Shown here one piece after another: positions 5,551 to 47,297 of a stretch of DNA of 51,859 bases. Both the position numbers and the translations under genes were made by a program. Source of the stretch: Thermoleophilaceae bacterium (GTDB lineage Bacteria; Actinomycetota; Thermoleophilia; Solirubrobacterales; Thermoleophilaceae); NCBI GenBank assembly GCA_036378175.1, contig DASUWY010000053.1, forward strand, positions 1 to 51,859, written 5' to 3'. Position 1 is the first letter of the stretch; every line of letters starts with the position of its first letter. The notes beneath the pieces were generated by a model. That model had not been told where the DNA came from. It ran no database searches and saw only the letters and a list, made by a program, of their open reading frames with translations.

Positions 5551-5558
5551 TACTCGTC
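5527..5558. repeat. Inverted repeat at the meeting point of two convergent paralogues
   Basis: GACGAGTAC at 5527-5535 is matched perfectly by GTACTCGTC at 5550-5558, with 14 bases between. Each arm encodes the terminal Asp-Glu-Tyr of one of the two DUF899 genes, so the repeat is formed by the same codons read from opposite strands. It could act as a two-way transcription stop, but there is no T-run and coding constraint is enough to explain it. Confidence 0.6.
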
Positions 5559-6281
5559 GTGGCGCCGCACCCAGAGCGGCTCGGTGGCACTCTCGTCGCG
5601 TCCCTTCGGCGTGCGGTCGAGCAGCGCGTAATACGCCATGCCGGGGGCCTCGAGCCCGCGCGCCGTGGTCACGTACGTCCGGTAGACCGTCCCGTCCGAG
5701 AGCGCGTACACGCTCAGGCCCGGCCCCTCGGTCACGTAGCCGAGCGCGTCGGTTCCGCACATCTCCGCGTTCTGCTCGACGGTGGCGGGAATGTTGCCGC
5801 TGTCGAGCCAGGGCCGGAGCTCCTCCTCGGTGTTGAGGAAGCCGATGTCGCGGTTGAAGTCGTTGTCGTCGCTGGACGCCCAGGGGATGCTCCAGCCCAT
5901 CCGCCGGCGGTAAGCGAGCAGCTGGTCGAGCGGCGCCCGCGAGGCGAGCATCAGGGTGGTGTCCCGCGCCGCGAGGTGCGGCACCTGCGGATTGAGGGTG
6001 TCTGCGATCGAGGTGCACACCGGGCAGCCACCGGCGCTGTACTGAGGGCCGAACATGAAGTGGTAGATCACGAGCTGAGAGCGCCCGCCGAACAGCTCGG
6101 CGAGCGTCCTCTCGCCGTCCTCGGTGTCGAAGACGTACTCCCTCTCCACCGGCACCCACGGCAGCTCGCGCCGCTTCTTCGTCAGCTCGTCGCCGCGGCG
6201 CGTGAGCTCCTTCTCCTGCTCGAGCAGCGCGTCGCGCTCCGCCTTCCACTCCTCCTGCGTGCCGATCCTGTGCTGTGTCAT
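5547..6281 (-). CDS. DUF899 thioredoxin-like protein (copy 2)
   Basis: 244 aa from the ATG at 6281, which has AGGAG at 6288-6292 with six-base spacing; an upstream in-frame ATG at 6287 would sit inside that site and is less likely. It is a clear paralogue of the neighbouring DUF899 gene: L-P-W-V-P-V, F-D-T-E-D-G and G-G-C-P-V-C-T-S all align, and both end near D-E-Y. The CxxC pair is kept. The gene is divergent from an ArsR regulator with a palindrome over that regulator's start, so it may be under ArsR control. Role unknown; probable redox protein. Confidence 0.88.
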   Translation of the reverse strand: MTQHRIGTQEEWKAERDALLEQEKELTRRGDELTKKRRELPWVPVEREYVFDTEDGERTLAELFGGRSQLVIYHFMFGPQYSAGGCPVCTSIADTLNPQVPHLAARDTTLMLASRAPLDQLLAYRRRMGWSIPWASSDDNDFNRDIGFLNTEEELRPWLDSGNIPATVEQNAEMCGTDALGYVTEGPGLSVYALSDGTVYRTYVTTARGLEAPGMAYYALLDRTPKGRDESATEPLWVRRHDEY

Positions 6282-6331: not shown

Positions 6332-6640
6332 GATACGTTCAAAGCCCTCGCCCATCCGATCCGGCGCGACATCGTCGAGCGGCTCAGTGGCGGCGTGGCG
6401 ACGGTGGGTGAGGTCACGCACGATTTCGGCGTGTCGAAGCCCACGATCTCGCGTCACCTGAAGATGCTGGAGGAGGCGGGCGTGGTGACTCGAGTGATCG
6501 ACGGCCGGACGCACCGCCTGGCCCTGCGGCCGGAGGCGCTTGCCGAGGCGGCGGATTGGCTCGAGGCGCAGCGCGCCCGCTGGGAGCGGCTGTTCGACGT
6601 GGTGGGCGAGTACCTCGACGAGCAGAAGGAGCGGCGTTGA
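6323..6640 (+). CDS. ArsR-family winged-helix repressor
   Basis: 105 aa from the ATG at 6323. Winged helix at about residues 5-85, with L-A-H-P-I-R-R-D-I-V-E near the N-terminus and recognition helix K-P-T-I-S-R-H-L-K-M-L. There are no cysteines, so it is not a metal sensor of the classical ArsR/SmtB kind; this subgroup is usually paired with an SRPBCC gene, as here, where the two overlap (TTGA). No Shine-Dalgarno is visible and translation may be leaderless. Likely represses its own operon through the palindrome over its start. Confidence 0.9.
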   Translation: MANDTFKALAHPIRRDIVERLSGGVATVGEVTHDFGVSKPTISRHLKMLEEAGVVTRVIDGRTHRLALRPEALAEAADWLEAQRARWERLFDVVGEYLDEQKERR

Positions 6641-7062
6641 GCTACGTGGTTCGCATCGAGCGGACGTTCGCGGCCTCCGCCGAGGAGGTGTTCGACGCCT
6701 GGACGAGCGCCGAGGTGATGCGCCGCTGGTTCCACTGCGAGCCCGACTGGGACACGCCGAAGGCCGAGGTGGATCTCCGCGTGGGCGGCAAGGTGAGCGT
6801 GGTGATGCGCCAGCCGGACGGCAGCGAGGCGGGCGCGCAGGGCGAGTACACGCTGATCGACCGGCCGCGCCGGCTGGTGATGACTTGGATCTTCGACTCG
6901 GACCCGTCGAACGAGCAGCTGATGGACCTTTCGTTCTCGGAATCCGAGGGCTCGACGACGGTGGTACTGGTGAACAGCCGCATCGCGACCGATGAGCGGC
7001 GCGAATCACAGGAGTGGGGATGGAACGGGTGCTTGAACGAGCTGGAACGTCTGTTCAGCTGA
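6637..7062 (+). CDS. SRPBCC/AHSA1-domain protein
   Basis: 141 aa. The TTG at 6637 overlaps the arsR stop and has AAGGAG at 6626-6631; the frame is open upstream, but that stretch is a shadow of arsR. Single START/Bet v 1-like (AHSA1) domain: E-R-T-F-A-A-S-A-E-E-V-F-D-A-W at the N-terminus, G-G-K-V central, and W-N-G-C-L-N-E-L-E-R-L at the end. Such proteins bind hydrophobic ligands. The ArsR-SRPBCC operon is a common pairing in actinobacteria, but the ligand is rarely known. Confidence 0.88.
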   Translation: MSYVVRIERTFAASAEEVFDAWTSAEVMRRWFHCEPDWDTPKAEVDLRVGGKVSVVMRQPDGSEAGAQGEYTLIDRPRRLVMTWIFDSDPSNEQLMDLSFSESEGSTTVVLVNSRIATDERRESQEWGWNGCLNELERLFS

Positions 7063-9130: not shown

Positions 9131-10482
9131 TTCTGCAGTCCGAGACGGCGCGCGAGGTCCGAGCGCATCGCCCCGGCGGGGTCGAGCCGCGCGCGAACCT
9201 CGCGCCAGCGCGGAAGCTCCGGATACATGGCCTCGAGCAGCTCAGGCCGCAGGCGCGAGTCCTTGGCGAGATACACGCGCCCGCCGGCCTCGGCGGTGAG
9301 CTCGTCGAGGCCGTCGAGCAGCTCGGACAGCTGCGGGGCATCCGCGGGCAGGTCCATTGCGAGCGTCCAGCCCGGCAGCGGGAACGAGAGCAGGCCCTCC
9401 TGAGGGCCGAAGCGCTTGAGCACCGCGAGCGTGGCCGGCGCCGGCGATGCGGCCAGGCGTTCGAGCACCTCGCGCATCGCGTGCTCGCTGCCCAGCGGCA
9501 ACGCGAGCTGGTACTGCACGAGCCCGCGCCGCCCGTACACGCGGTTCCACCCCGCCACGGAGTCGAGCGGGTAGAAGAAGCGGTCGAGCGGTGTGAGGCG
9601 CTCGGCGCGGACGGGCGCGCGGCGGAAGTAGACCTCGTTGAACACCGCGACGGTCTCGCGCCGCACGAGGCCCGAAGGCAGCCACGGCGGCGCCGCCAGA
9701 GGGAGCCGTTGGGGAAGCTCGAGCGGCTTTGCCCGCGCTGGGCCGGAAAGCATCTCGACGGGCGCGTGGTCGCCCTGCATGAGGACGGACCTCCCCAGGC
9801 GATTTCCGCGCGCGAGGCAGTCGATCCAGGCGACGGAGTAGCGGTGCGACGCGTCCGTGGAGGCGAGCCCCTCCATCGTCGCGTCGAGGTCCGGCGCGCG
9901 CGCCACCTGCTCGGCGATGTAGGCGGTCTCGATCCTGATCGGTGTCAGCGTTGCCTCGAGCACGATCCCCGTGAGCCCCATCCCGCCCGCGGTGGCGAAG
10001 AACTCGTCAGGAGTTGTGGCGCGGTCCAGCGTGAGGCGCTCTCCGGCCGGCGACTGGAGGACCAGCGATGTGACGTGTGCGCACAGGCTGCCGTCAACGT
10101 GGTGGTTCTTCCCATGAACGTCGGCGGCGATCGCGCCTCCCAGGGTGACGTGCTGCGTGCCGGGCGTGACCGGGAGGAACAGCCCGAACGGCAGCAGCGC
10201 GTTCGCCAGGTCCTTGAGCGACACCCCTGCTTCGGCGGTCACGCTCGGGGTGGCGCGATCGATCGCCTTGATTCTCGACATCGCGGTCATGTCGAGCACG
10301 AGGCCGCCCGCGTTCTGCGCGGCGTCGCCGTAGCTCCTCCCAAGCCCGCGCGCGAGCACGCCGCGCTCGCCGGGGTGACGGAGCAGCGCCGCCACGTCGG
10401 CCGCTCCGGCGGGGGTTCTCACACGCGCGCGGGTGGCGGCGGTGCGCCCCCAGCCGCTCAGCAGCCTCTCCTCGGTACTCAC
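9127..10482 (-). CDS. dprE1: DprE1-like FAD oxidase (decaprenyl-P-ribose 2'-oxidase)
   Basis: 451 aa; the GTG at 10482 overlaps the ubiA stop. The N-terminal FAD domain carries A-R-G-L-G-R-S-Y-G-D near residue 45 and H-G-K-N-H-H near 120 (the His-rich site of the family), and the C-terminal substrate domain carries Y-G-R-R-G-L-V-Q-Y-Q and A-K-D-S-R with the conserved lysine near 407. Oxidises polyprenyl-phosphoryl ribose to the 2'-keto form. The residue aligned with the benzothiazinone target cysteine (Cys387 in M. tuberculosis) is Ala about 375 here. About the same length as the mycobacterial enzyme. Confidence 0.92.
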   Translation of the reverse strand: MSTEERLLSGWGRTAATRARVRTPAGAADVAALLRHPGERGVLARGLGRSYGDAAQNAGGLVLDMTAMSRIKAIDRATPSVTAEAGVSLKDLANALLPFGLFLPVTPGTQHVTLGGAIAADVHGKNHHVDGSLCAHVTSLVLQSPAGERLTLDRATTPDEFFATAGGMGLTGIVLEATLTPIRIETAYIAEQVARAPDLDATMEGLASTDASHRYSVAWIDCLARGNRLGRSVLMQGDHAPVEMLSGPARAKPLELPQRLPLAAPPWLPSGLVRRETVAVFNEVYFRRAPVRAERLTPLDRFFYPLDSVAGWNRVYGRRGLVQYQLALPLGSEHAMREVLERLAASPAPATLAVLKRFGPQEGLLSFPLPGWTLAMDLPADAPQLSELLDGLDELTAEAGGRVYLAKDSRLRPELLEAMYPELPRWREVRARLDPAGAMRSDLARRLGLQK

Positions 10483-24471: not shown

Positions 24472-24529
24472 GAACCGTGTTCACCCCGCCGGCGACCCAG
24501 GCGAGCCGCGTTGTCCCGCGTCTCCCACG

Positions 24530-24561
24530 TGGACAGCATTTTCGGATCTGATGTGTCCGAA
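24530..24561 (+). repeat. Imperfect 32-bp direct repeat, left copy
   Basis: This 32-bp segment, running from TGGACAGC to GTCCGAA, recurs at 29714-29745 with 29 of 32 bases the same (differences at repeat positions 9, 12 and 24). It contains an internal TTCGGA...TCCGAA inverted repeat. It sits in a non-coding gap just after the sulfur module and marks the left edge of the loosely packed accessory stretch. Confidence 0.65.
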
Positions 24562-24893: not shown

Positions 24894-25097
24894 CTACAGC
24901 AGTTGGACGTTGACGGCCTTCGGTCCCTTGTCGCCGGCCTCGGCGTCATAGGAGATCTTGGCGCCCTCGGCGAGCGACCTGTAGCCATCGCCCACGATGC
25001 CGGAGTGATGGACGAACAGGTCCTTGCCCGCCTCATCCGGCGTGACGAAGCCGAAGCCCTTCTCGTCGCTGAACCATTTGACGGTTCCTGTTGGCAT
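24894..25097 (-). CDS. cspA: Cold-shock domain protein
   Basis: 67 aa from the ATG at 25097 with GGAGGAG a few bases upstream. Complete cold-shock domain: G-T-V-K-W-F at residues 4-9, K-G-F-G-F-V RNP1, and D-L-F-V-H RNP2. RNA chaperone that binds single-stranded nucleic acid. About 220 bases of non-coding DNA lie upstream before the heptad-repeat gene; a long 5' leader is common for csp genes but I see no specific thermosensor structure. Confidence 0.95.
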
Positions 25098-25346
25098 GTG
25101 CTCCTCCGTTTGTCTGTGCCGCGTACGCGGAGGATGCTGGTTCGAGCAACGACCTACGAGCGCCTGCACTTCTCGCTGGCGATAACACCAGCCTGTGCGT
25201 AGGAACGTAGCAAGTATCAGGTGCGACCAGCTTGGACCAGCGGGTGAAAGCCGAGTTCGCCCGCAATCTCGATCCCGCTACAGCAAGTAGGGGGTTCAGC
25301 GCCGAGCGAGTTACGCTTGGGCGTAGTCGAAGGAAGCCGATCGCTG

Positions 25347-26216
25347 ATGCACGTGGACGGAGATCCAGCCGAGGGCGTCGCCGCGTCTGCGGGTGACGCT
25401 CGGGAGCAGGCGCGCGAGTCGAGTGAGGTCGTTCGGGTGGCTCGCGAGCGTGAGCGCGTCGCCGCGGAGCGCGAGCAGATCGCCGATAAGCGGGAGCAGC
25501 TTGCCGAAGAGCGAGAGCGGCTCGCCCTGAGGCGCGAGCAGCTGACCCAGGCGCGCGAGAGACAGGCCGCGGGCCTGGACGAGCGCGAGGCGGCTGCCGA
25601 GAGGCGCGAGCGGCTGGCGGACGAGCGCGAGCGGATCGCGGAAGAACGCGAGCGGCTGGCGAACGAGCGCGAGCGCCTGGCGGACGAGCGCGACGTGACG
25701 GCGGACGAGCGAGAGCGGATCGCCAACCAACGCGAGGGCACTTCGGAGCAGCGCGAGCTGGAGCGTCACGAGCGCGACGAGGCCAAGCTCGAGCGGGAGC
25801 GGCAGGCTGAGCGCAGAGAGCGATCCGCGACCAGCCGAGAGATCGCCGGCGCCGAACGGCAAGAGATTGCCGGCGACAGGCGCGAGCACCTGGCAGACGA
25901 GCGGGACAGGATCGCTGACGAGCGCGAGCGTCTGGCAGACGCGCGCGAGCGCTCCGCCGATGAGCGGGAGCACATCGCGGACGAACGCGAAGGGACTGCC
26001 GAGCAGCGCGAGGTGGAGCGTAGGGAACGAGCGGCGGCGGCGGCCGAGCGGGAGCGACAGGGCCAGAGAAGAGAGCAGGCGCAAATCAACCGCGAGACCG
26101 CTGCCACCGAGCGCGAGGTGGCCAGGGAAGACCAGCCCGATGAGGAAGCAGGCGGGGTCGCGCGAGGGCAGGAGGCGAGGACGAAGCGGACTAACCCAGG
26201 AAGTCCGGCTAGCTAA
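25347..26216 (+). CDS. Heptad-repeat coiled-coil / single-alpha-helix protein
   Basis: 289 aa from the ATG at 25347 (a GTG at 25317 is in frame). After about 25 residues the chain is almost entirely E, R, A, L, D and Q in 7-residue steps such as E-R-L-A-D-E-R. This predicts one very long charged alpha helix or coiled coil, with no membrane segment, signal or catalytic motif. Two long segments match one another: each ends in R-E-G-T-(S/A)-E-Q-R-E-(L/V)-E-R and then E-R-E-R-Q, which points to internal duplication. The last 35 residues are less regular. Function unknown; a structural or scaffolding role is possible. Confidence 0.75.
   Translation: MHVDGDPAEGVAASAGDAREQARESSEVVRVARERERVAAEREQIADKREQLAEERERLALRREQLTQARERQAAGLDEREAAAERRERLADERERIAEERERLANERERLADERDVTADERERIANQREGTSEQRELERHERDEAKLERERQAERRERSATSREIAGAERQEIAGDRREHLADERDRIADERERLADARERSADEREHIADEREGTAEQREVERRERAAAAAERERQGQRREQAQINRETAATEREVAREDQPDEEAGGVARGQEARTKRTNPGSPAS
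25440..26080 (+). repeat. 21-bp-period coding repeat
   Basis: The DNA of the heptad-repeat gene shows degenerate tandem units of 21 bases around GCGAGCGGCTGGCGGACGA, each coding one heptad. Units are diverged, so the repeat is old or is held by selection on the heptad pattern. It is not a CRISPR array: units are adjacent, without spacers. Confidence 0.7.
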
Positions 26217-29348: not shown

Positions 29349-29563
29349 GCAGCCGGCCGCCGTCCGGCCCCGAGCCAGAGCCATGCTCGCCACAAGGACA
29401 ATGCAAGGCTCGCCATCAAGACATGATCGCGACCCGCAATTCGCCAGGACCAGGGGTCTGCACCAAGCTGCCGGCGTGTGGACCCTCGCTCTAGATGCGC
29501 GGGGGGTCAGATCTGTATGCGTTTTGTACGCCGCGTGCCCCGAGGGACAAGCGCAAGAGCCAA

Positions 29564-29605
29564 GCCGACGGAGGGATTCGAACCCTCGACCCCCGCTTTA
29601 CGAGG
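29564..29605 (-). tRNA. 3' fragment of tRNA-Thr (CGT)
   Basis: On the minus strand the sequence runs from the anticodon loop C-T-C-G-T-A-A through a 5-base variable loop, a perfect T-arm (GAGGG, TTCGAAT, CCCTC) and the 3' acceptor strand CGTCGGC. Upstream of position 32 the anticodon-stem partner (expected CCGCT) and the whole D-arm are absent. It is therefore not a functional tRNA but the 3' half left by recombination, as at attachment sites of integrated elements. CCA is not encoded. Confidence 0.75.
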
Positions 29606-29713
29606 GAGAATTTGGGTGTCTGCGCGCGTCCAACGGAGAGCAGCTAGGACCATCAAAATCGCTGCAAACAGGCCAGTTTCGAGCCGCAGCTGATGATCTG
29701 CCCTCGCCCCGCT

Positions 29714-29745
29714 TGGACAGCGTTCTCGGATCTGATCTGTCCGAA
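29714..29745 (+). repeat. Imperfect 32-bp direct repeat, right copy
   Basis: Matches the segment at 24530-24561 in 29 of 32 bases. It is followed by a second TGTCCGAAA 11 bases after the first (29738-29746 and 29749-29757). It lies about 110 bp from the tRNA-Thr fragment, so the pair may mark the ends of a 5.2-kb insertion or be copies of a dispersed element. Confidence 0.65.
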
Positions 29746-29807
29746 ATGTGTCCGAAAGCGATCCTCATCGCAGCGTCGGTTGAGCTAGCGATGGCGCCGC
29801 CGGGCGC

Positions 29808-30341
29808 TCAGGCTGTTGCGAGTCTTGCCCGCAGGATCTGCGGGAGTTCGCGCCAGGGCCGGTCCAGGCGCTCGCCGTCGAGGAAGAAGGTGGGCGTCGC
29901 GTGGACTCCAGCTCTCCGGCCGCCCTCGATGTCGGCGAGGACGCGCTCTCGAAACGTGTGCTCGCGAAGGGCCGCGTCAGTCTCCGCTGGGTCGAGCCCG
30001 AGTCGCTCTGCCACCGAGAGTAGGTCGTCGTGCGTGAAACGCCCGCGGGGTGTAAGGAGCAGCGAATGTGCGTCCCAGAACTGCCCGTACAAGCCGGCCA
30101 GTTCCGAGAGCTCCGCCGCGAGGTCCGCTCGGGGATGGAGCGCAGGCACGGGGAAGTGGCGCCAGACCAAGCGGAGGCCGTCGAGGCGGTCCACGAGTGA
30201 CTTCACCGGTCGACTCGCTTGGTAGCAGTACGGGCATCCGAAATCCCCGTACTCGACGAGCGTCAGCTTAGGGCTGCTCGAGCCGGTGACGTGATCACGC
30301 TCTCCGACCGCGGGCAGGGTGCTTGACAGCGAGGCGTCCAT
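29808..30341 (-). CDS. DsbA-like thioredoxin-fold oxidoreductase
   Basis: 177 aa from the ATG at 30341 (frame open upstream without similarity). DsbA/FrnE-type fold: V-E-Y-G-D-F-G-C-P-Y-C near residue 30 with the CxxC site C-P-Y-C, a helical insert, and the cis-Pro loop A-T-P-T-F-F near 155. No signal peptide or lipobox, so it is probably cytoplasmic, unlike secreted DsbA. Thiol exchange or protection of cysteines is likely. Confidence 0.9.
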   Translation of the reverse strand: MDASLSSTLPAVGERDHVTGSSSPKLTLVEYGDFGCPYCYQASRPVKSLVDRLDGLRLVWRHFPVPALHPRADLAAELSELAGLYGQFWDAHSLLLTPRGRFTHDDLLSVAERLGLDPAETDAALREHTFRERVLADIEGGRRAGVHATPTFFLDGERLDRPWRELPQILRARLATA

Positions 30342-30515
30342 CTCAACTGCGGACCTGTCCCCGGCTCGGCCGCGGCGAACTCCGCAAGGCAATGGCTCGA
30401 CACCTTGCCAGCAGGCGTCGGACTCTCGCCAGCAGACGCTGGTCTCGCGATCCCCCCAAGGGGGCACTCTCTCGCGGCCCGGGACTTGTTCGAGAAGTCT
30501 GGCTAGGAAGCGACG

Positions 30516-30869
30516 TCACGGACGAGCCCCTTGAGCCAGGGTCGTGTATCGACCGTCGAATCGCGTGCCCCGGCTCAGTTCCTTGAAGCTCAGCCCAACG
30601 ATCTCATCGCCCTCGACGATCCAGAGCAGGCCGTAACAAGCTCGATAGCTCGGCGGCCAGAACGAGCAGAAGCGTCCATCCTCGTCGACGTACCACTTGC
30701 CCTGCGTGGGACGACCGTCCGCCTCGATGTAGCTCGTGTCGCCGTTTGCGTCGAACGTCTGCGTCGCCCCGTCGTCGAAGAGCAGCTCGCCGGCCGTCAC
30801 TGCTCGCGGGATCAGGGGCGCCGCAACCGGCTCACCGTCAACGACCGCGACATCCTCCAAACCTTGCAC
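30516..30869 (-). CDS. Small protein, DUF995-like, unknown function
   Basis: 117 aa from a GTG at 30869; no ribosome site. Beta-rich: L-L-F-D-D-G-A-T-Q-T-F near residue 29, then G-K-W-Y-V-D-E-D-G-R-F-C-S-F-W and a second cysteine in Y-R-A-C-Y-G. The order W-x-x-D-x-x-G-x-x-C resembles small periplasmic DUF995-like proteins, although no signal peptide is visible. Confidence in the family is low. Confidence 0.55.
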   Translation of the reverse strand: MQGLEDVAVVDGEPVAAPLIPRAVTAGELLFDDGATQTFDANGDTSYIEADGRPTQGKWYVDEDGRFCSFWPPSYRACYGLLWIVEGDEIVGLSFKELSRGTRFDGRYTTLAQGARP

Positions 30870-30921
30870 GGGATCAACCTATTGCCTCGATCCGGGCCGG
30901 TTCGAACGGATTCGTTATCGC

Positions 30922-31458
30922 TCAATCGCGTCGCCTTGTCGGCGTGCTCGCGGTCTCGCGGCGTGGCAGCTTCCAGCGCGGCCGCGGGAAGTGGCAGGTG
31001 TAGCCGTTCGGGTGGTGCTGGAGGTAGTCCTGGTGCTCGGGCTCGGCCTCCCAGAACGGGCCGGCCTCACTCACCTCCGTCACCACCTTGCCAGGCCAGA
31101 GGCCCGAGGCGTCGACGTCGGCGATCGTGTCCTCCGCGACCTGGCGCTGCTCGTCGCTCGTGTAGAAGATCTCGGAGCGGTAGCTCGAGCCGATGTCGTT
31201 GCCCTGGCGGTCCTTGGTCGTCGGGTCGTGGATCTGGAAGAAGAACTCGAGGATGTCTCTGTAGGAGATGCGCTCGGGGTCGAAGACGATCTCGACGGCC
31301 TCGGCGTGACCAGGATGGTTGCTGTAGGTGGGGTTGTCGTTGTCCCCACCGGTGTAGCCAACCCTCGTTGAGATCACTCCATCGCGGTGGCGCAGCAGTT
31401 CCTGTACGCCCCAGAAGCAGCCCGCGGCAAGGATGGCGGTCTCGGTGTTGTCGTTCAT
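30922..31458 (-). CDS. msrA: Peptide methionine sulfoxide reductase MsrA
   Basis: 178 aa from the ATG at 31458. Active-site G-C-F-W-G at residues 13-17 with the catalytic cysteine, G-Y-T-G-G near 35, H-A-E-A-V-E-I near 50, and [12 protein letters not shown] near 77. Reduces methionine-S-sulfoxide. The C-terminus has R/T-rich residues after W-K-L-P-R, and no resolving cysteine is visible there. It sits between redox genes (DsbA-like and aldo/keto reductase). Confidence 0.97.
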
Positions 31459-37165: not shown

Positions 37166-37284
37166 CGGCTGGCGCATCTCCGAACGTCTGGTGATGCTGG
37201 CGCCTCCGCGCGCCACGCCGAACGCCGATTGGACGATCACGTTTTCGTCTTGCGATGAAGCGAACCGACGCAACCCTCGAAGGT

Positions 37285-38355
37285 ATGAAACCGACCGCGA
37301 AGCTTCATGAGTCCGGACAGAGCCTCTGGCTGGACAACATCAGCCGGGAGATGCTCGACTCAGGCCAGCTCCAGCGCTACATCGACGAGTACTCCGTGAG
37401 CGGACTGACCTCCAACCCGTCGATCTTCGACAAGGCGATCGCATCAGGCGCGTATGACGCTGAGATTCGCCGCAAGGGAGCCAAGGATCCCGAAGAGCTG
37501 TTCTTCGAGCTGGCGATCGAGGACCTCAGGCGGGCGGCAGACCTGTTCGAGCCGATCCACCGGCGGACCGACGGCGTGGACGGATGGGTATCCCTCGAGG
37601 TCTCTCCGCTCCTGGCATACGACGCGAGCCGGACGGCACAGGCCGCCGCCGACCTTCACGCTCGAGCGGACCGCGAGAACCTCTTCATCAAGATCCCTGG
37701 TAATGAGGCGGGCGCGGAGGCGATCGAGGAGTCGATCTTCGCGGGTGTCCCGGTGAACGTGACGCTGCTGTTCTCGCCTGAGCAGTATCTGGCCGCGGCC
37801 GACGCCTACATGCGCGGAATCGAGCGACGGGTGGCCGCCGGGTTGGACGCGCACGTGGATTCGGTGGCGTCGGTGTTCATGTCCCGCTGGGATGCGGCGG
37901 TGCTCGATCGGGTGCCAGCCCGCCTCCGCGGCCGGCTCGCGGTCGCCATCGGGCTGAAGACCTACCAGGCATACCGCGAGTTGATGGAGTCGGAACGCTG
38001 GCAGCGGCTGGCGAACGAAGGCGCACGCAACCAGCGACTGCTATGGGCGAGCACCAGCAGCAAGGATCCGGAGACCCCAGACACCTTCTACGTGCGTTCG
38101 CTCAGCGCGCCCAACACCATCAACACGATGCCCGAATCAACGTTGGCCGCCTTCCAGGACCACGGAGCGGTCGATGCGCCGATGCCGACGGACGGAGGCG
38201 ATGCCGACGCCACGCTGGCCGAGTTTGAAGCCGCCGGCGTCGACGTCGGCGCCCTCGGCGCGAAGCTCCAGTCCGACGGCGCGAAGAGCTTCACCGAGTC
38301 GTGGAACGATCTGCTGAAGCGGATCGACGATCAGGTCGCGGCGCTCCAAGCATGA
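37285..38355 (+). CDS. tal: Transaldolase
   Basis: 356 aa from the ATG at 37285, chosen because [17 protein letters not shown] matches the family start; an ATG at 37255 is in frame and neither has a strong ribosome site. TalB/actinobacterial type: T-S-N-P-S-I-F near residue 50, L-F-I-K-I-P-G-N with the Schiff-base lysine near 132, and V-N-V-T-L-L-F-S near 155. Transfers dihydroxyacetone between sugar phosphates in the non-oxidative pentose phosphate pathway. Its stop overlaps the pgi start. Confidence 0.95.
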
Positions 38356-39953
38356 CCGAGCTCCGGTCGCGCCCAGCGTGGAGGGCGCTGGAGAACCACT
38401 ACGAGGACGTTCGCGGCCTGCATCTGCGCGACCTGTTCGCCGAAGATCCCGCGCGCGGCGAGCGGCTCGTCGCCGAGGGCGCGGGACTGTATCTCGACTA
38501 CTCCAAGAATCGGATCACGAACGAGACCATCGCGCTGCTCGTGCGGCTGGCGGAGCAGTCGCAACTTCCAGCGCGGATCAGGGCGATGTTCCGCGGCGAG
38601 CGGATCAATGTGTCCGAGGACCGCTCGGCGCTGCACGTGTCGCTGCGTATGCCAAAGGGCGCGTCGCTGGTCCTCGACGGCGTCGACGTGGTCGCAGAGG
38701 TCCATGAGGTACTCGATCGGATGGCGGCATTCTGCGAGCGCGTGCGCGGCGGCGCCTGGACCGGCTACACGGGCCGGCGGATCCGTAACGTCGTGAATAT
38801 CGGCATCGGGGGCTCGGATCTCGGTCCGGTGATGGCCTATGAGGCGCTGCGCCACTACTCCGACCGCGGGCTGACGTTCCGGTTCGTCTCGAACGTCGAC
38901 GCGACCGATTTTGTCGAAGCGACGCGTGATCTGGATGCGGAGGAGACGTTGTTCATCGTCTCCTCCAAGACGTTCACCACGCTTGAGACGATGACCAACG
39001 CCCGATCCGCGCGCGACTGGGCGCTGTCAGCACTGGGCGACGAGCGGGCGATCGCCAAGCACTTCGTGGCCGTCTCCACCAACGCCCGGAAGGTCGCCGA
39101 GTTCGGGATCGAGACCGAGAACATGTTCGGGTTCTGGGACTGGGTGGGTGGTCGCTACTCGTTGGATTCGGCGATCGGGCTGTCGACCATGCTTGCGATC
39201 GGTCCGGACCGGTTCTACGAGATGCTCGCCGGTTTCCACGCGATGGACGAGCACTTCCGGACCACCCCGCTGGAGCGCAACCTGCCCGTGCTGATGGGGA
39301 TGCTCGCCGTCTGGTACGGCGACTTCTTCGGTGCCCAGACGGTCGCGGTGCTGCCGTACGAGCAGTACCTCAGTCGGTTCCCCGCATACCTGCAGCAGCT
39401 GACGATGGAGTCAAACGGTAAGTCAGTGACGCTCGACGGCGCGCGCGTGGACTATGAGACCGGCGCCATCTATTGGGGCGAGCCCGGCACAGGCGGCCAG
39501 CACTCCTTCTACCAGCTCATCCATCAAGGGACGAAGCTGATCCCAGCCGACCTTATCGCCTTCGAGCACAGCCTCAACCCCCTCGGCGACCACCACGACC
39601 TGCTCATCGCAAACGTCTTCGCGCAGGCCGAGGCCCTTGCGTTCGGCAAGACCGCCGACGTCCCGCATCGCACGTTCGAGGGCAACCGCCCAACGAACAC
39701 CATCCTGCTCGACCGGCTGACTCCGGAGGCGCTCGGCAAGCTCGTGGCGCTCTACGAACACAGCGTCTTCACCCAGGGCACGGTGTGGGGCATCGACTCG
39801 TTCGATCAGTGGGGCGTCGAGCTGGGGAAGGTGCTGGCCAAGCGGATCGCCGGGGAGCTCATGAGCGAGGCGGAGCCCGAACTGGCGCACGACTCGTCGA
39901 CGGCGGCGCTGATCCGGCGCTACCGCAGATCAAGAAACGGAAGGGAGAGCTAG
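38352..39953 (+). CDS. pgi: Glucose-6-phosphate isomerase
   Basis: 533 aa from the ATG at 38352, overlapping tal (ATGA). PGI marks: [11 protein letters not shown] near residue 157, S-K-T-F-T-T near 212, G-G-R-Y-S near 272, and [16 protein letters not shown] in the second half. Interconverts glucose-6-P and fructose-6-P. Here, with zwf and gnd, it can return fructose-6-P to the oxidative branch. In some actinobacteria tal and pgi are fused; here they are separate but overlapping. Confidence 0.96.
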
Positions 39954-39955
39954 TC

Positions 39956-40978
39956 ATGGCGCAGCTTGGGATGGTCGGCCTCGGGCGAATGGGCAACGGG
40001 ATCGTCCGGCGCCTGATGCGCGACGGGCACGACTGTGTGGTGTACGACGTCAACCCGGACGCTGTGGCGGCACTCGAGCGCGAGGGCGCCACGGGCACGA
40101 CGGCGCTCGAGGATTTCGTGCGGGCGCTGGACAAGCCGCGCGCCGCCTGGGTGATGATCCCCGCCGCGATCACCGGAAAGGTCGTCGACCAGCTCGCGGA
40201 GCTGATGGAGCCAGGCGACGTGATCATCGACGGCGGCAACAGCTACTACCGCGACGACATCGCGCGCGCGAGCAAGCTGCGGCCGACCGGGATCCACTAC
40301 ATCGACTGCGGCACGAGCGGCGGCGTGTTCGGTCTCGAGCGCGGCTTCTGCCTGATGATCGGCGGCGACGTGGAGCCCGTCCGGCGCCTCGATCCGATCT
40401 TCCGCTCGATCGCGCCCGGTGAGACAGCCGCACCGCCCACTCCGGGACGCCCGGGTGGTGGCACCGCGCAGGACGGCTACCTGCACTGCGGTCCCGCCGG
40501 CGCCGGTCACTTCGTGAAGATGGTCCACAACGGCATCGAGTACGGCGTGATGGCCGCCTACGCCGAGGGCCTGAACGTCCTGCACCGGGCAGGCGTCGGC
40601 AAGGAGCAGGCGCAGACGAGCGCCGAGATTGCGCCCCTGACCAACCCGGAGTACTACCAGTACGACTTCGACGTGCCCGAGGTGGCCGAGCTGTGGCGGC
40701 GCGGCAGCGTGATCGCCTCCTGGCTTCTCGACCTCACGGCGGCGGCCCTGGCGAGCGACCCGGGCCTCGAGGGGCTCGCGGGCCGGGTCTCGGACTCCGG
40801 CGAGGGCCGCTGGACGATTCACGCCGCGATCGACGAGGGTGTGCCGGCGCCGGTACTGTCCGCGGCGCTCTTCGAACGGTTCAGCTCTCGCAATCTCGAC
40901 GATTTCGGCAACAGAGTGCTGTCGGCGATGCGCAAGCAGTTCGGCGGCCATGTCGAGTCCCCCGGAATCAGCCACTAA
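39956..40978 (+). CDS. gnd: 6-phosphogluconate dehydrogenase, short form
   Basis: 340 aa from the ATG at 39956, 2 bases after pgi. N-terminal Rossmann site G-L-G-R-M-G; strand 2 ends in V-V-Y-D-V-N, and an acidic residue at that point favours NAD+ over NADP+. Substrate motif I-I-D-G-G-N-S-Y-Y-R-D-D near residue 92 and K-M-V-H-N-G-I-E-Y near 183 with the catalytic lysine. The length (340 rather than 470) is that of the short NAD-linked GndA/YqeC group. Cofactor use is inferred from the residue, not measured. Confidence 0.93.
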   Translation: MAQLGMVGLGRMGNGIVRRLMRDGHDCVVYDVNPDAVAALEREGATGTTALEDFVRALDKPRAAWVMIPAAITGKVVDQLAELMEPGDVIIDGGNSYYRDDIARASKLRPTGIHYIDCGTSGGVFGLERGFCLMIGGDVEPVRRLDPIFRSIAPGETAAPPTPGRPGGGTAQDGYLHCGPAGAGHFVKMVHNGIEYGVMAAYAEGLNVLHRAGVGKEQAQTSAEIAPLTNPEYYQYDFDVPEVAELWRRGSVIASWLLDLTAAALASDPGLEGLAGRVSDSGEGRWTIHAAIDEGVPAPVLSAALFERFSSRNLDDFGNRVLSAMRKQFGGHVESPGISH

Positions 40979-41038
40979 CGGGGTATCACCACGGAGGCGA
41001 CGCCGGACGCGAGCAGCCACGGCGGTGGAGGGCACCGC

Positions 41039-42169
41039 TCATCCGCCACCGGCTCTCAGGTGTGCCAGCCGCCCCAGCACGGCCTGGAGCGCCGGGGCGT
41101 AGGACCGGTCGCGCAGTTGTGCTTGCCTGACTCCTTCGCCGAGGATTCCGTACTCGCCTCGGGATGCCCCCAGCACCTGCCAGACCCGCGGCTGTCCTTG
41201 GGGTGAGCGCTCTCGCGCGCATAGCCCGCCGGGCGCGCGGTCCAGTGACAGCGAGAAACCGTCCCGGGAGGCGACTGTGATGCCGGCGAGTCCAGGCGCC
41301 TCCTGGTCGACCGCCTCGAGGACGATCTCGACCTCGGAGCTCGGGAGCGCCCCAGCGGCGGTGTGGCGGAATGCCACCCCGCCATTCGACCTGACCGGCC
41401 CCCGCTCCAACCGCAGGCGTGAGGCGAGCCAGCCAGCGAGCAGGAGGCCGCTCGCGCCGCTGCCCGGCCGATGACGGATAGAGACCGAATTCAGTTCTGG
41501 CAGCCTGCTCAGACGGTCGGGCGGGTCAAAGCTTGCGGCGAGGCGCTCGCGCCAGGGCGTCGTGCGAAGCCACGCCAGGTCGACGACATACGCGGAGCGC
41601 ACCAGCTCTGCGGCGCGCATCAAGCCAGCGCGCGGGTCAGTCGGCTCGTCGGAATCCAGCAAGATCGCATCGACCTTCCCGAGCAGCGGCTGGACTCCCC
41701 CCTCATACCCGCGAGCGCACCAGAGCGCGGTCGGGAGCTCGGAGGCGAGCACAGGGTCGACGATCGTGTCCAGGTGGCTGAGGTGCTCGCCGCCCATCTC
41801 GATCTCGACCTTCTCGTGAACCAAACCCAGCTTCCCGTCGCTCGGCTCCGTGTAGCTCATGACCACCGTCGCGTCGAGGGTGCGGCGCCCGTCCTCAACC
41901 GTGCAGAGGATCGTGCGCGAGGCTTCATAGCGCCCGACGTGTTCGAGTCGTGCCGCGATCGCGTCCTTGGACGCGCGGTCAACGACGACGATCAGGTTGA
42001 GGACCCGTGCCGGCGCGAGCGCGCGGTTTGCGGCGTGGCGCTCACGCAGCAGCCGGCGCAGCGCGCTGTCGATCGCGTCCGGGTTGGTGTCGCGGGCCGA
42101 CCACGAATCCTCGCTCACGCGCGGCGCCACGTTGCCGGCCGTTCGCGGCTCGCTCACAGCCGCCGCCAT
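41039..42169 (-). CDS. opcA: OpcA-type glucose-6-phosphate dehydrogenase assembly protein
   Basis: 376 aa; start overlaps the zwf end by 16 bases. OpcA family: R-V-L-N-L-I-V-V-V-D near residue 55, S-R-T-I-L-C-T-V near 84, L-P-T-A-L-W-C-A-R-G near 145 and A-G-W-L-A-S-R-L near 247. In cyanobacteria and actinobacteria OpcA binds Zwf and activates it. Cotranscribed with zwf on the minus strand, converging with gnd. Confidence 0.93.
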   Translation of the reverse strand: MAAAVSEPRTAGNVAPRVSEDSWSARDTNPDAIDSALRRLLRERHAANRALAPARVLNLIVVVDRASKDAIAARLEHVGRYEASRTILCTVEDGRRTLDATVVMSYTEPSDGKLGLVHEKVEIEMGGEHLSHLDTIVDPVLASELPTALWCARGYEGGVQPLLGKVDAILLDSDEPTDPRAGLMRAAELVRSAYVVDLAWLRTTPWRERLAASFDPPDRLSRLPELNSVSIRHRPGSGASGLLLAGWLASRLRLERGPVRSNGGVAFRHTAAGALPSSEVEIVLEAVDQEAPGLAGITVASRDGFSLSLDRAPGGLCARERSPQGQPRVWQVLGASRGEYGILGEGVRQAQLRDRSYAPALQAVLGRLAHLRAGGG

Positions 42170-43686
42170 CGCCGCCCGTTGTCGAGCAGTGCGGCAGCCT
42201 CCGCTGGCCCGTCCGAGCCCGACGTGTATTGCGGGATCGCCGAGGTGGTGTCCTCATGCCAGGCGGTGAGAATCGGGTCGATGATCCCCCACAGCGCCTC
42301 GATCTCGTCGTCGCGCGTGAACAGGGTCGCGTCGCCCCGCATCGCATCGAGGATCAGCCGCTCATATGCCTCAGGGGATTCTGAGAGGAATGCCGTGCCG
42401 TAGCGAAAATCCATGTTCACCGGACGGATCCGCATGCGAGGGCCGGGGATCTTCGCCCCGAGGGAGACCGACAGCCCCTCGTCGGGCTGCACCGTCAGGA
42501 TGATCTGGTTCTGCTGCGCGCCGACCGAGCCTGTGTTCCGGAACGCCAGGTGCGGCACCGGCTTGAGCGTTACGGCGATCTCCGTCAGCTTGCGCGACAG
42601 GTTCTTTCCGGTCCGCAAGTAGAACGGGACGCCGGACCAGCGCCAGTTGGAGATGTTCAGCCGCAGCGCGGCGTAGGTCTCGGTGCGCGAGTCCGGCGCG
42701 ACTCCCTCCTCCTCCACGTAGCTTGGGACCGCGGCCCCGCCGACGACACCCGCACGGTACTGAGCCCGAAGCGCCATCTCGTGCACCTCGTCGACGGTCG
42801 GCGGGGCGATCGCCTCGAGCACCTTCAACTTCTCGTCGCGAAGCCGGTTGGCGTCAAACGAGGTCGGCGGTTCCATCGTCAACAGCGCCAACAGCTCCAG
42901 CATGTGATTCTGAACCAGATCGCGCAGCGCACCGGCTCCCTCGTAGTAGCCGGCGCGGGCCCCGATCCCGATGTCCTCGGCAACCGTGATCTGCACGTGG
43001 TCGATGAAGTTGCGATTCCAGACGGGCTCGAACAGCGCATTCGCGAAGCGCAGGGCCATCAGGTTCTGGACCGTCTCCTTGCCCAGGTAGTGATCAATCC
43101 GGAACACCTGCGACTCGTCGAACACCCCGAGCACCTGCGCGTTCAGGTTTCGTGCCGAAGCCAGGTCGTAGCCGAAGGGCTTCTCGATCACGATCCGGGT
43201 CTGCGCCCGCTCGCCGCGCTCAAGCCCTGCAGCGCCGAGCTTGCCCGAGATCAAGGGGAAGAACTGCGGTGCTGTCGACAGGTAGAAGACCCGGGTGAGC
43301 TCGCGCCCGGCCCGCTCGTCGAATTCGGCCAGCGTGCGCGCGAGGCTGCTGTACACCCCGTCGTCGTCGAACGCGCCCGGGACGTAACGCACATCCGCGA
43401 GCAGCGAATCGAGCACATCCGGAACCGGCGGACGGCGTGAGAACCGCTGGATTGACTCGCGCGCAATGCGTCGGAAATCCTCGTGCGGGTGATCCGGCCG
43501 CGCTACCCCGATCAGCTCAAAACGCTCGGGGAGCGCCCCCTCATGAGCGAGGTTGTACAGCGCCGGCAGCAGCTTGCGATGGCCCAGATCTCCCGTCGCG
43601 CCGAAGATCACCAGCACGGTGGGGTGGACGGGCAGACGCTCCAGACCCTCAACCAGAGGGTTCTCGACCCGCGAACTGAGCTCCAT
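42154..43686 (-). CDS. zwf: Glucose-6-phosphate 1-dehydrogenase
   Basis: 510 aa from the ATG at 43686. G-A-T-G-D-L-G-H-R-K nucleotide site near residue 30, catalytic R-I-D-H-Y-L-G-K-E near 196 and E-K-P-F-G near 168. Oxidises glucose-6-phosphate to 6-phosphogluconolactone, giving NADPH. Divergent from the sugar transporter with a palindrome between. No lactonase (pgl) is seen nearby. Confidence 0.97.
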   Translation of the reverse strand: MELSSRVENPLVEGLERLPVHPTVLVIFGATGDLGHRKLLPALYNLAHEGALPERFELIGVARPDHPHEDFRRIARESIQRFSRRPPVPDVLDSLLADVRYVPGAFDDDGVYSSLARTLAEFDERAGRELTRVFYLSTAPQFFPLISGKLGAAGLERGERAQTRIVIEKPFGYDLASARNLNAQVLGVFDESQVFRIDHYLGKETVQNLMALRFANALFEPVWNRNFIDHVQITVAEDIGIGARAGYYEGAGALRDLVQNHMLELLALLTMEPPTSFDANRLRDEKLKVLEAIAPPTVDEVHEMALRAQYRAGVVGGAAVPSYVEEEGVAPDSRTETYAALRLNISNWRWSGVPFYLRTGKNLSRKLTEIAVTLKPVPHLAFRNTGSVGAQQNQIILTVQPDEGLSVSLGAKIPGPRMRIRPVNMDFRYGTAFLSESPEAYERLILDAMRGDATLFTRDDEIEALWGIIDPILTAWHEDTTSAIPQYTSGSDGPAEAAALLDNGRRWRRL

Positions 43687-43739
43687 GGACCGCAGCAAAG
43701 CGCACGGTCGGCGTCGCTCAACCGGTCCTGAAGGTCGAT

Positions 43740-43758
43740 CGATCGGCGGCGCCGATCG
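43740..43758. promoter_or_regulatory. Palindrome between zwf and the sugar transporter gene
   Basis: CGATCGGC (43740-43747) and GCCGATCG (43751-43758) are perfect 8-bp inverted arms around GGC. It lies in the 168-bp divergent region, about 54 bases upstream of zwf and 96 upstream of the MFS gene. Likely an operator for sugar-responsive control of both directions; the regulator is not obvious. Confidence 0.55.
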
Positions 43759-43854
43759 CCGGACCGCGACGCCGCAAGCAACTCATCGCCGATCCGGATC
43801 ACCCGATTTGCGATTGCGGTCGCTGGTGTGGGATCCCAGCGCACACTCCGCTGC

Positions 43855-45330
43855 ATGCCAGCGCTCCGGGACCGGAAAGCACTCGCCACTGTCGCCCGTC
43901 TGGCGTCCAGCGCGGCGCTGGGCGGCTTTCTCTTCGGTTACGACAGCTCGGTGATCAACGGAGCGGTCAGCGCAATCGGCAACCATTACGGCGTCGGCGC
44001 CACCGGCCTCGGGTTTACCGTGTCTTCGGCGCTGCTCGGTGCCGCCGTGGGTGCAATCGTGGCGGGCCGCGTGGCGGATCGCTTCGGTCGGTTGGCCGCG
44101 ATGCGGTTGGCTGCAGCGCTGTTTCTGATCAGCGCGCTGGGGACCGGGCTGGTCGACTCCCTGGCGTGGCTGATCGTGTTTCGCGTAGTTGGCGGGGTCG
44201 GTGTGGGGATGGCGTCGGTCGTCGCACCGGCCTACATCGCGGAGATTGCCCCAGCGCGCGCCCGGGGCCGACTCGGCTCAGTGCAACAGCTGGCGATCGT
44301 GTTGGGGATCTTCGTGGCGCTGCTGGCCGACTATGCGTTTGCGACGGCGGCGGGCGGTTCCGAGAAGCCATTCTGGTTGGGCCTCGCGGCGTGGCGGTGG
44401 ATGTTCTTGGCAATGACCGCACCGGCGCTGATCTACGGTGCGTTGACGCTGACGATCCCCGAGTCGCCGCGCTACCTGGTGTCCCGGGCGCGTCTGCCGG
44501 AAGCGAGGCGGGTGCTCCGCCGCGTGCTGGGCGACGTCGACGTGGATGCAAAGGTGGGTCAGATCCGCGAGACGCTGAACGTCGAACGCCGCCCGCGGCT
44601 GGCCGACGTGCGCGGCCCGGCGCTGGGGCTGTTGCCGATCGTGTGGGTCGGGATCGGCCTCTCGGTCTTCCAGCAGTTCGTTGGGATCAACGTGATCTTC
44701 TACTACTCGAGCGTCTTGTGGCAGGCGGTGGGATTCAGCGAGAGCAACTCGCTGGCCATCACGGTGATCACGAGCGCGGTCAACATCGTGACCACGCTCG
44801 TTGCGATCGCGCTGATCGACAAAGTGGGCCGCAAGCCGCTCCTGCTGGTCGGATCGGCCGGAATGACCATCACGCTCGGCGTGATGGCGGCGATCTTCGG
44901 CACCGCGGCGACGGGCGCCAACGGCCAGCCTGTCCTACACGGCGCCGCGGGACCGGTCGCGCTCGTGGCCGCCAATGCCTTCGTGTTCTTCTTCGGGATG
45001 TCGTGGGGTCCCGTCGTGTGGGTGATGCTCGGCGAGAAGTTCCCCAACCAGATCCGCGCCTCCGCGCTCGCGGTGGCCGCGTCCGCCCAGTGGATCGCCA
45101 ACTGGGCAATCTCGACCAGCTTTCCCTCGCTCAAGGATGCCGGGCTCGGATTGGCCTACGGCATCTACGCCGCTTTCGCGCTGCTGTCTTTTGTCTTCGT
45201 GCGCTGGGCTATCACCGAGACCAAGGGCCACGAACTCGAGGACATGCCCGAGGACGTAAGAGCACGCCTTCCGATGCGGGTGCGGCGCCCTCGGCGAGAG
45301 GTCCTGGCCGAAGAACCAGGCCGACCCTGA
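43855..45330 (+). CDS. Sugar-porter MFS transporter
   Basis: 491 aa from the ATG at 43855. Sugar porter family marks: F-G-Y-D-S-S-V-I-N-G in helix 1, A-D-R-F-G-R in loop 2-3, P-E-S-P-R-Y-L after helix 6, Q-Q-F-V-G-I-N-V in helix 7 and G-R-K-P in loop 8-9. Twelve helices. Probably a proton symporter for glucose or a similar hexose. Context with zwf, a ROK kinase and transketolase supports hexose uptake. Confidence 0.94.
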   Translation: MPALRDRKALATVARLASSAALGGFLFGYDSSVINGAVSAIGNHYGVGATGLGFTVSSALLGAAVGAIVAGRVADRFGRLAAMRLAAALFLISALGTGLVDSLAWLIVFRVVGGVGVGMASVVAPAYIAEIAPARARGRLGSVQQLAIVLGIFVALLADYAFATAAGGSEKPFWLGLAAWRWMFLAMTAPALIYGALTLTIPESPRYLVSRARLPEARRVLRRVLGDVDVDAKVGQIRETLNVERRPRLADVRGPALGLLPIVWVGIGLSVFQQFVGINVIFYYSSVLWQAVGFSESNSLAITVITSAVNIVTTLVAIALIDKVGRKPLLLVGSAGMTITLGVMAAIFGTAATGANGQPVLHGAAGPVALVAANAFVFFFGMSWGPVVWVMLGEKFPNQIRASALAVAASAQWIANWAISTSFPSLKDAGLGLAYGIYAAFALLSFVFVRWAITETKGHELEDMPEDVRARLPMRVRRPRREVLAEEPGRP

Positions 45331-45377
45331 AGTCGCACTGATCAACACCCGTCCATCCCCGTCACAAGGACCAGAAC

Positions 45378-47297
45378 ATGACCGCCGCTCTCACCACTTC
45401 CGATCTCGCAACCCTGGCGCAGCTGGCCCAGCAGTTGCGCGTCGATTCGATCCGGGCGAGCACGAGCGCAGGCTCCGGTCATCCCACCTCGAGCATGTCG
45501 GCAGCCGACGTCCTCGCCGTGCTCGTCGCTCGCCACCTGCGCTACGACTGGGATCGGCCAGACGCCGATGGAAACGACCATCTGATCCTCTCCAAGGGGC
45601 ACGCCTCACCGTTGCTGTACTCCCTCTACAAGGCCGTCGGGGTCGTGTCCGACGAGGAGTTGATGACCCGCTACCGCCGCTTCGGCTCTCGCCTGCAGGG
45701 CCATCCGACTCCCGTGCTGCCCTGGGTCGACGTTGCCACGGGGTCGCTCGGCCAGGGCCTACCCGACGGGGTGGGCATCGCGCTGGCCGGGAAATATCTC
45801 GATCGGGTGCCGTTTCGCGTGTGGGTGCTGTGCGGCGACAGCGAGCTGGCAGAGGGCTCGATCTGGGAGGCGCTGGACAAAGCCGGCCACTACGAGCTGT
45901 CGAATCTCGTCGCAATCGTTGATGTCAACCGGCTCGGGCAGCGCGGGCCGACCGAGCTGGGCTGGGATCTCGATGGCTACGCCCGCCGCGCTGAGGCGTT
46001 CGGGGCGCACGTGCTGGAAGTCGACGGGCACGATTTGAGCGCTGTGGACGATGCCCTGGCGGAGGCGGCTCGCGCGGATGACCGGCCGACGGTGGTTCTC
46101 GCCCGGACGATCAAAGGCCGCGGCTTCTCGGAAGTCGAAGATCACGAGGGCTGGCACGGCAAGCCGTTTCCCGAGGACATGGCGGCGCGAGCAATCGCCG
46201 AGCTGGGCGGGGAGAGCAACCTGCTGATGCGCGGACCTCTGCCCGCTCCCCAGTCGGTGAACGGCACCGCCCCGGTGGCGGAGACGGACCCCGGCGCCTC
46301 GCCGCCGAGCTACAGGCGAGGCGAGAGAGTGGCCACCCGCCAAGCCTACGGCGAAGCCCTGGAGGCGCTCGGCAGTCGCCGTCCGCGGGTGGTCGCGCTG
46401 GATGGCGAGGTGAGCAACTCCACCCGCGCCGACCTGTTCGCGAAGGCTCATCCGGACCGTTACTTCGAGATGTTCATCGCCGAGCAGCAACTCGTGGCGT
46501 CGGCCGTAGGGCTGAGCGTCCGCCGCTACATCGCGTTCGCCTCGACCTTCGCGGCGTTCCTCACGCGCGCGTACGACTTCATCCGCATGGCGTCGGTCTC
46601 CCAGGCGGACGTGCGCCTGGTCGGGTCCCACGCGGGCGTCGAGATCGGCGCCGACGGGCCCTCGCAGATGGCGCTCGAGGACCTGGCAATGATGCGCGCG
46701 GTGCAGGGATCCACGGTCTTCTACCCGAGCGACGCCGTCAGCACCGCCGCCCTGGTGGACGTGATGGCCGACACCGACGGGATCAGCTACCTGCGCACCA
46801 CTCGCGGTGCGTATCCGGTGCTCTACGACGCCGGGGAGTCCTTTCCACCCGGCGGCTCGAAGGTCCTACGGTCTGATCCCTCCGACGCGGTGACGCTGAT
46901 CGGCGCCGGTGTCACCCTGCACGAATGCCTGCTCGCCGCGGATCAACTCGCACTGGATGGCATCCGTGCACGAGTGATCGACCTGTACTCGATCAAGCCC
47001 ATCGACAGCGAGACGCTGATCGCGGCGGCCGACGCCACCGAGGGCCGAATCGTGGTCGCCGAGGACCACCACCCAGAGGGCGGTCTCGGTTCGGCGGTGG
47101 CGTCCGCGCTGCTGGCGGCGGGCGTACAGGGATTGCGCCTGGCACACCTGAGCGTGTCCGAGCTGCCAGGCTCCGGCACGACGGGAGAACTATTGGAGGC
47201 GGCCGGCATCGACGCCGAGCACATCGCCTCGGCGGCCGCTGCGTTGGTCGAAGAGGGCAAGCAGCCCTCGCCCGACGGCGAGTGGATAACCCGGTGA
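45378..47297 (+). CDS. tkt: Transketolase
   Basis: 639 aa from the ATG at 45378. TPP site: G-S-G-H-P-T-S-S near residue 33, G-D-S-E-L-A-E-G-S near 155. C-terminal half with E-V-S-N-S-T-R near 355 and a final domain V-I-D-L-Y-S-I-K-P-I-D. This is the shorter form of about 620-640 aa, as in animals and some bacteria, with a GDS rather than GDG motif. Transfers C2 units in the pentose phosphate pathway. Its stop overlaps the ndh start. Confidence 0.93.
   Translation: MTAALTTSDLATLAQLAQQLRVDSIRASTSAGSGHPTSSMSAADVLAVLVARHLRYDWDRPDADGNDHLILSKGHASPLLYSLYKAVGVVSDEELMTRYRRFGSRLQGHPTPVLPWVDVATGSLGQGLPDGVGIALAGKYLDRVPFRVWVLCGDSELAEGSIWEALDKAGHYELSNLVAIVDVNRLGQRGPTELGWDLDGYARRAEAFGAHVLEVDGHDLSAVDDALAEAARADDRPTVVLARTIKGRGFSEVEDHEGWHGKPFPEDMAARAIAELGGESNLLMRGPLPAPQSVNGTAPVAETDPGASPPSYRRGERVATRQAYGEALEALGSRRPRVVALDGEVSNSTRADLFAKAHPDRYFEMFIAEQQLVASAVGLSVRRYIAFASTFAAFLTRAYDFIRMASVSQADVRLVGSHAGVEIGADGPSQMALEDLAMMRAVQGSTVFYPSDAVSTAALVDVMADTDGISYLRTTRGAYPVLYDAGESFPPGGSKVLRSDPSDAVTLIGAGVTLHECLLAADQLALDGIRARVIDLYSIKPIDSETLIAAADATEGRIVVAEDHHPEGGLGSAVASALLAAGVQGLRLAHLSVSELPGSGTTGELLEAAGIDAEHIASAAAALVEEGKQPSPDGEWITR

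Follow-up and report, generated by a model that had tools for sequence, protein, structure and literature searches.

The question raised by this locus is how the 3′ half of a tRNA-Thr(CGT) gene came to lie, without its 5′ half, within the window, which is the whole stretch of 51,859 nucleotides analysed here and constitutes contig C53 of a 4.29-Mb genome (G000) assembled in 89 contigs. The fragment contains the whole anticodon loop, the 3′ strand of the anticodon stem, the variable loop, the T-arm and the 3′ acceptor strand, and is followed by a native trailer (Table 1) that also follows the intact tRNA-Thr(CGT) gene in both G000 and the sister species G001. The intact gene of G000 was located by ARAGORN at C65:10032-10105. 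Positions 29556-29604 of the window matched C65:10025-10073 at 49/49 bases (E 5.8e-19), and a chance origin of this identity can be taken as excluded. Consistent with a half gene, ARAGORN called no tRNA in the window, and Rfam detected no RNA family there at gathering scores, giving a sub-threshold tRNA match over the T-arm only. The earlier note on this DNA had thus described a real 3′ half, and the perfect T-arm and acceptor strand that it reported are both covered by the 49/49 identity; it had placed the fragment at 29564-29605, which is correct as to location but one base off, the fragment occupying 29563-29604 on the minus strand. Its statement that everything 5′ of the anticodon loop is replaced proved exact, because all seven bases of the loop are retained and, in a side-by-side comparison, identity to the intact gene ends at the 5′ edge of the loop. 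This edge is the crossover point of many tRNA-targeting tyrosine integrases.

Table 1. Features of the tRNA-Thr(CGT) fragment and its flanks in the window
Feature	Position	Strand	Comparison or repeat
Isolated partial copy of the P-arm end, without tRNA core	24524..24561	+	87% over 38 bp to 29708-29745
P′ (integrase-proximal) arm-type site GTACAAAACGCATACA (minus strand)	29514..29529	.	Repeat pair 7/9, 11-bp period
Native trailer, 7 nt past the tRNA 3′ end, TGGCTCT on the tRNA strand	29556..29562	-	
Displaced fragment (att core): 3′ 42 nt of tRNA-Thr(CGT)	29563..29604	-	Within 29556-29604, 49/49 to C65:10025-10073; side-by-side comparison
P arm of an integrative element, in place of the tRNA 5′ half	29605..29757	.	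Shared with C65:6643-6794
P arm-type site TGTCCGAAATGTGTCCGAAA, two 9-bp repeats, 11-bp period	29738..29757	+	9/9 repeat

The contig carrying the intact gene (C65) showed the traces expected of insertion at that gene. A direct repeat of 120 bp with 97.5% identity was found at 6527-6646 and 9958-10077; the latter copy holds the intact tRNA and the former a second 3′ fragment (C65:6594), while the 3.4 kb enclosed by the pair includes BrkB-family and PRC-barrel genes. This second fragment and the regenerated gene bound one continuous element of 3.4 kb, from C65:6594 to 10105, whereas no such continuity with the gene was recovered for the window fragment. The process behind the window fragment is visible, in mirrored arrangement and in this direct repeat, at the tRNA gene proper. 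Replic_Relax and HTH_17 genes neighbour a tyrosine integrase gene (C65:3191-4894; PF00589, E 5.3e-18) located 5.1 kb from the tRNA. In the sister species, an integrase with about 65% amino acid identity to that of C65 directly abuts tRNA-Thr(CGT) on G001:C247 and reads towards the tRNA gene; no relatives of the C65 integrase were confirmed in public genomes. In the window (25317-26216) and likewise at L009 (C65) 5303-5911, coiled-coil genes with long ERERLADERERIA-type repeats precede the tRNA fragment on its left.

Next to the fragment, the right flank is 153 bp long and ends in TGTCCGAAATGTGTCCGAAA. Together with the core, it was shared with the second fragment on C65 (29556-29757 versus C65:6594-6794, 87% identity over 204 aligned columns), and weaker copies were found at C62:3088-3245 and C33:1-158 (77-78% over about 160 bp). 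When up to three mismatches were allowed, a genome-wide search gave just four occurrences of TGTCCGAAATGTGTCCGAAA, one on C53, two on C65 and one, with a single mismatch, on C62, and none of a reversed control pattern. The exact 20-bp site gave 20 matches in public genomes, mostly in Bacteroidetes-type organisms, which were taken as unrelated. On C65, the core has a TGTCCGAAATGTGTCCGAAA-type site towards the integrase too, and a worn one on its opposite side; this layout agrees with what an element whose two arms share one type should show. Judged from these sequence comparisons, the right flank corresponds to the P arm that an inserting element should leave. A circular form of this right-hand element, were it still mobile, would be predicted to contain at its junction the 49-bp core between arms that each carry a TGTCCGAAA-type site.

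The left flank carries a site of another type, GTACAAAACGCATACA, 26 bp from the tRNA fragment. Its counterpart, GTACAAAACGCGTACA, was found at G001:C247:646-661, within the last codons of the integrase frame that abuts tRNA-Thr(CGT), and the two agree at 15/16 bases. A search of 14 genomes with one mismatch allowed gave three further occurrences of the motif and no others: those at G001:C266 and G000:C15 both adjoin tRNA-Pro(TGG) and a sequence resembling an integrase end, and the one at G000:C77 adjoins a 3′ fragment of tRNA-Pro.

These results support the view that the fragment is what remains of an attachment site displaced by integrative elements that target tRNA genes, the customary trace of such insertions. 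Because arm-like sites of two different types flank it, the fragment is probably the junction between two stacked elements and not the end of one; with good, though not complete, confidence, we interpret the displaced 3′ half as the product of tyrosine-integrase elements and its position as the seam of two of them. The crossover of such an element would fall in the anticodon loop of tRNA-Thr(CGT); the incoming element would bring its own copy of the 3′ half, keeping the tRNA functional, and the original 3′ half would be pushed to the far end of the element. The left-hand element (element A) would have had a G001-type integrase, since lost, with its P′ arm still present, and the right-hand element (element B), with a C65-type arm, would have been inserted after it. 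We infer this order from the flanks; entry of the two elements at tRNA-Thr is likewise presumed. The isolated partial copy at 24524..24561, which also matches C65:6744-6779 (92% over 36 bp), may tentatively be regarded as the worn distal end of the left-hand element.

The present position of the fragment bears on a variant of this explanation, in which the seam was formed at tRNA-Thr and later relocated by island recombination or chromosomal rearrangement, which would leave the window at a great distance from the tRNA gene. Blocks at 2.2-17.4 kb of the window were 77-88% identical to G001:C298, so that the left part of the window appears to be a backbone common to the two genomes; gene order relative to G001 is rearranged around 12-17 kb, and past the shared block G001:C298 maps to other contigs of G000. 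In relatives, tRNA-Thr(CGT) lies near tRNA-Tyr(GTA) and tRNA-Thr(GGT), an ancestral neighbourhood that in G000 is divided between C65 and C73. Contig-end overlaps of about 141 bp join C65 to C89 and C17, and C57 to C62; the same search joined C53 to no contig, C65 included, and in so fragmented an assembly the window could not be shown to be linked with the tRNA gene. The shared backbone, the location of the ancestral neighbourhood on other contigs and the missing join to C65 also count against the stacked-element explanation. Relocation would account for the shared backbone, for the rearranged order at 12-17 kb and for the additional fragments on C62 and C33 beside unrelated genes, and a homologue of LutB, whose gene stands at the left end of the window, lies about 1.4 Mb from a tRNA-Thr-like match in a single-contig genome of another family. 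However, the gene order of another family is a weak guide, and this assembly of 89 contigs, which gives no distances between contigs, yielded no direct evidence of a move. We rate a relocation at slightly less than an even chance.

The content of the right part of the window is pertinent to the stacked-element explanation itself. For 20-51.9 kb, only lower-identity matches were found in G001 (assembly 88% complete), and this part therefore looks accessory relative to the sister. Genes for transaldolase, PGI, G6PD and transketolase were observed at 37255-47297. Such sugar-phosphate metabolism genes are unusual for a small mobile element, and count against the explanation. The G6PD region was only 68% identical to the copy of the sister, versus 77-88% for the backbone blocks, and the set may for this reason be a second, acquired one. 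A DsbA-type gene and the next stretch (29799-30937) were 88-89% identical to G014:C2, the other shared genes being 68-79% identical, which suggests a recent transfer of this region. At about 24900-25100, on the minus strand, lies a cold-shock-type protein gene, named by eye from its sequence. This gene was multicopy in every family relative searched (75-85% nucleotide identity), which accounts for the repeated matches at 24.9-25.2 kb; an RNA or repeat at this stretch was accordingly rejected.

It is also conceivable that the fragment marks the far end of only one element, the left motif being coincidental and the left side ordinary chromosome. The match to the G001 integrase end is only 16 bp long, and its pattern was defined after both sequences had been seen. 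Beyond these 16 bp, the left flank was no closer to the G001 integrase end than shuffled sequence (score 76, against 77 for the best of 300 shuffles); no integrase was detected in the window contig, and tblastn with the C65 and G001 integrases gave no convincing relic to the left of the fragment. The step from one element to two is thus an interpretation of a motif picked post hoc. Against coincidence, the motif would be expected 0.07 times in a 52-kb window at three mismatches, and was present with none at this short distance from the fragment; moreover, its positions in G001 and on C15 and C77 are of a similar kind, next to tRNA genes. A single element therefore appears unlikely. Although tRNA pseudogenes occur in bacteria, a decayed pseudogene duplicated without a mobile element is scarcely credible, given that the truncation coincides with the edge of the anticodon loop, that four places share this 3′ half and the sequence following it, and that an integrase adjoins the intact gene in G001. 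Insertion of one element at a secondary site was rejected on logic, as it would not place the tRNA 3′ half beside a P arm.

Comparison with 60 relatives agreed with an origin by integration. Of these, 26 gave a match, either to an intact tRNA gene or to a short tRNA-like sequence confined to the first ~50 bases of the query; the fragment together with its right-hand flank was found in none of the 60. The lone right-flank match, of 27 bp in G030, had neither an arm site nor tRNA sequence nearby and was set aside as a short chance match. The earlier note had ascribed the fragment to integration of an element at a tRNA gene and had named the intact gene, an integrase near it and the gene order of a relative as the things to look for. 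The intact gene, with its extended perfect identity, and the integrase, near it on C65 and directly abutting it in the sister species, bear this origin out. Neither an intact gene lacking extended identity nor conservation of the fragment in relatives, either of which that note held to speak against it, was found. The comparison of gene order was informative in part: in relatives, tRNA-Thr(CGT) is present and no displaced fragment accompanies it, yet none of those examined gave a clean copy of the window locus as it would have been before insertion.

The window fragment is not the only one in this genome. Fragments of the 3′ end of tRNA-Thr(CGT) with the same following sequence are present at four places (C53, C65, C62 and C33), three of which lie outside the tRNA contig. 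Those at the right end of C62 (L010 3105-3245) and the left end of C33 (L051 1-141) end in the same 141 bases, and the shared sequence into which these ends run was not found in the genome; they represent either a single element in two copies or differences between strains. With near-intact cores and arms, the four fragments could in principle form a network in which each serves as a secondary attachment site, a proposal that we consider rather improbable; if true, elements could integrate at widely separated loci of the genome or recombine from one to another. An integrase pair with 88% DNA identity was also observed at C55 (L048) 3193-3350 and C73 (L049) 1001-1730: one abuts the intact tRNA-Thr(GGT), and the other is followed by the 3′ fragment of that gene and a window-like P arm, making this a second stacked tRNA site in G000. 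A displaced tRNA-Thr(GGT) fragment on C55, with a match on C1, and a displaced tRNA-Pro(TGG) fragment on C77 indicate that tRNA-targeted insertion is frequent in G000.

A feature common to these sites is the spacing of their repeats. The GTACAAAACGCATACA and TGTCCGAAATGTGTCCGAAA sites are of different types and are both repeat pairs with an 11-bp period, and such pairs were found at most other integrase and tRNA arms examined. The arms of the tRNA-Thr(GGT) sites on C73 and C55 had not been looked at in this respect before the test, and for them 11 bp was the best of the periods tested. The P arm to the right of C65:6594 was a weak case (6/9; 11 bp not its best period), and the partial copy at 24.5 kb contained no such pair. 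The repeat pairs are presumed to bind integrase.

The fragment belongs to a known kind of structure, namely, stacked elements at a tRNA gene. The islands catalogued by Islander (PMC4383910) lie in tRNA or tmRNA genes, the target being split and regenerated by the island and the displaced fragment standing at the other end. The split and regenerated target, the fragment marking the other end and the tyrosine integrase are shared with the present case, whereas here the regenerated gene and the window fragment are on different contigs and the integrase of the left-hand element is missing. An identical 3′ fragment, a tyrosine integrase with the regenerated gene and absence of the fragment from the relatives examined were found together, as in tDNA islands, and the sequence features of tandem islands were seen in the different arm-type sites on the two sides of the fragment and in the direct repeat pair on C65. 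In Dehalococcoides, many tandem islands are stacked at ssrA with displaced 3′ fragments, some without an integration module (PMC3146451). There too, several displaced 3′ fragments of one RNA gene mark stacked islands, but the target is tmRNA and the enzyme a serine recombinase, in contrast to tRNA-Thr and a tyrosine recombinase here. Among actinobacterial AICEs, Sav3708 and Sav3728, whose integrases belong to two subfamilies, occupy one tRNA-Arg gene in tandem (PMC3218068), resembling the two elements with different integrase types in one tRNA gene proposed here. The Replic_Relax and HTH_17 genes beside the C65 integrase are a further likeness to AICEs, and the only AICE-type genes seen there; unlike in AICEs, the window yielded neither a conjugation nor a replication module, and the elements look worn.

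The general understanding of integration at tRNA genes is unchanged by this locus, which illustrates a familiar process clearly but in no unusual way. If, as we suspect, the organism is a deep-branching actinobacterium, the locus provides well-marked stacked tRNA-targeted elements in a lineage on which a literature search found almost nothing on the subject. The 11-bp-spaced paired repeats near integrase ends and fragment flanks, seen at three tRNA targets, are suggested as a signature that could help to spot worn islands from which the integrase is gone.
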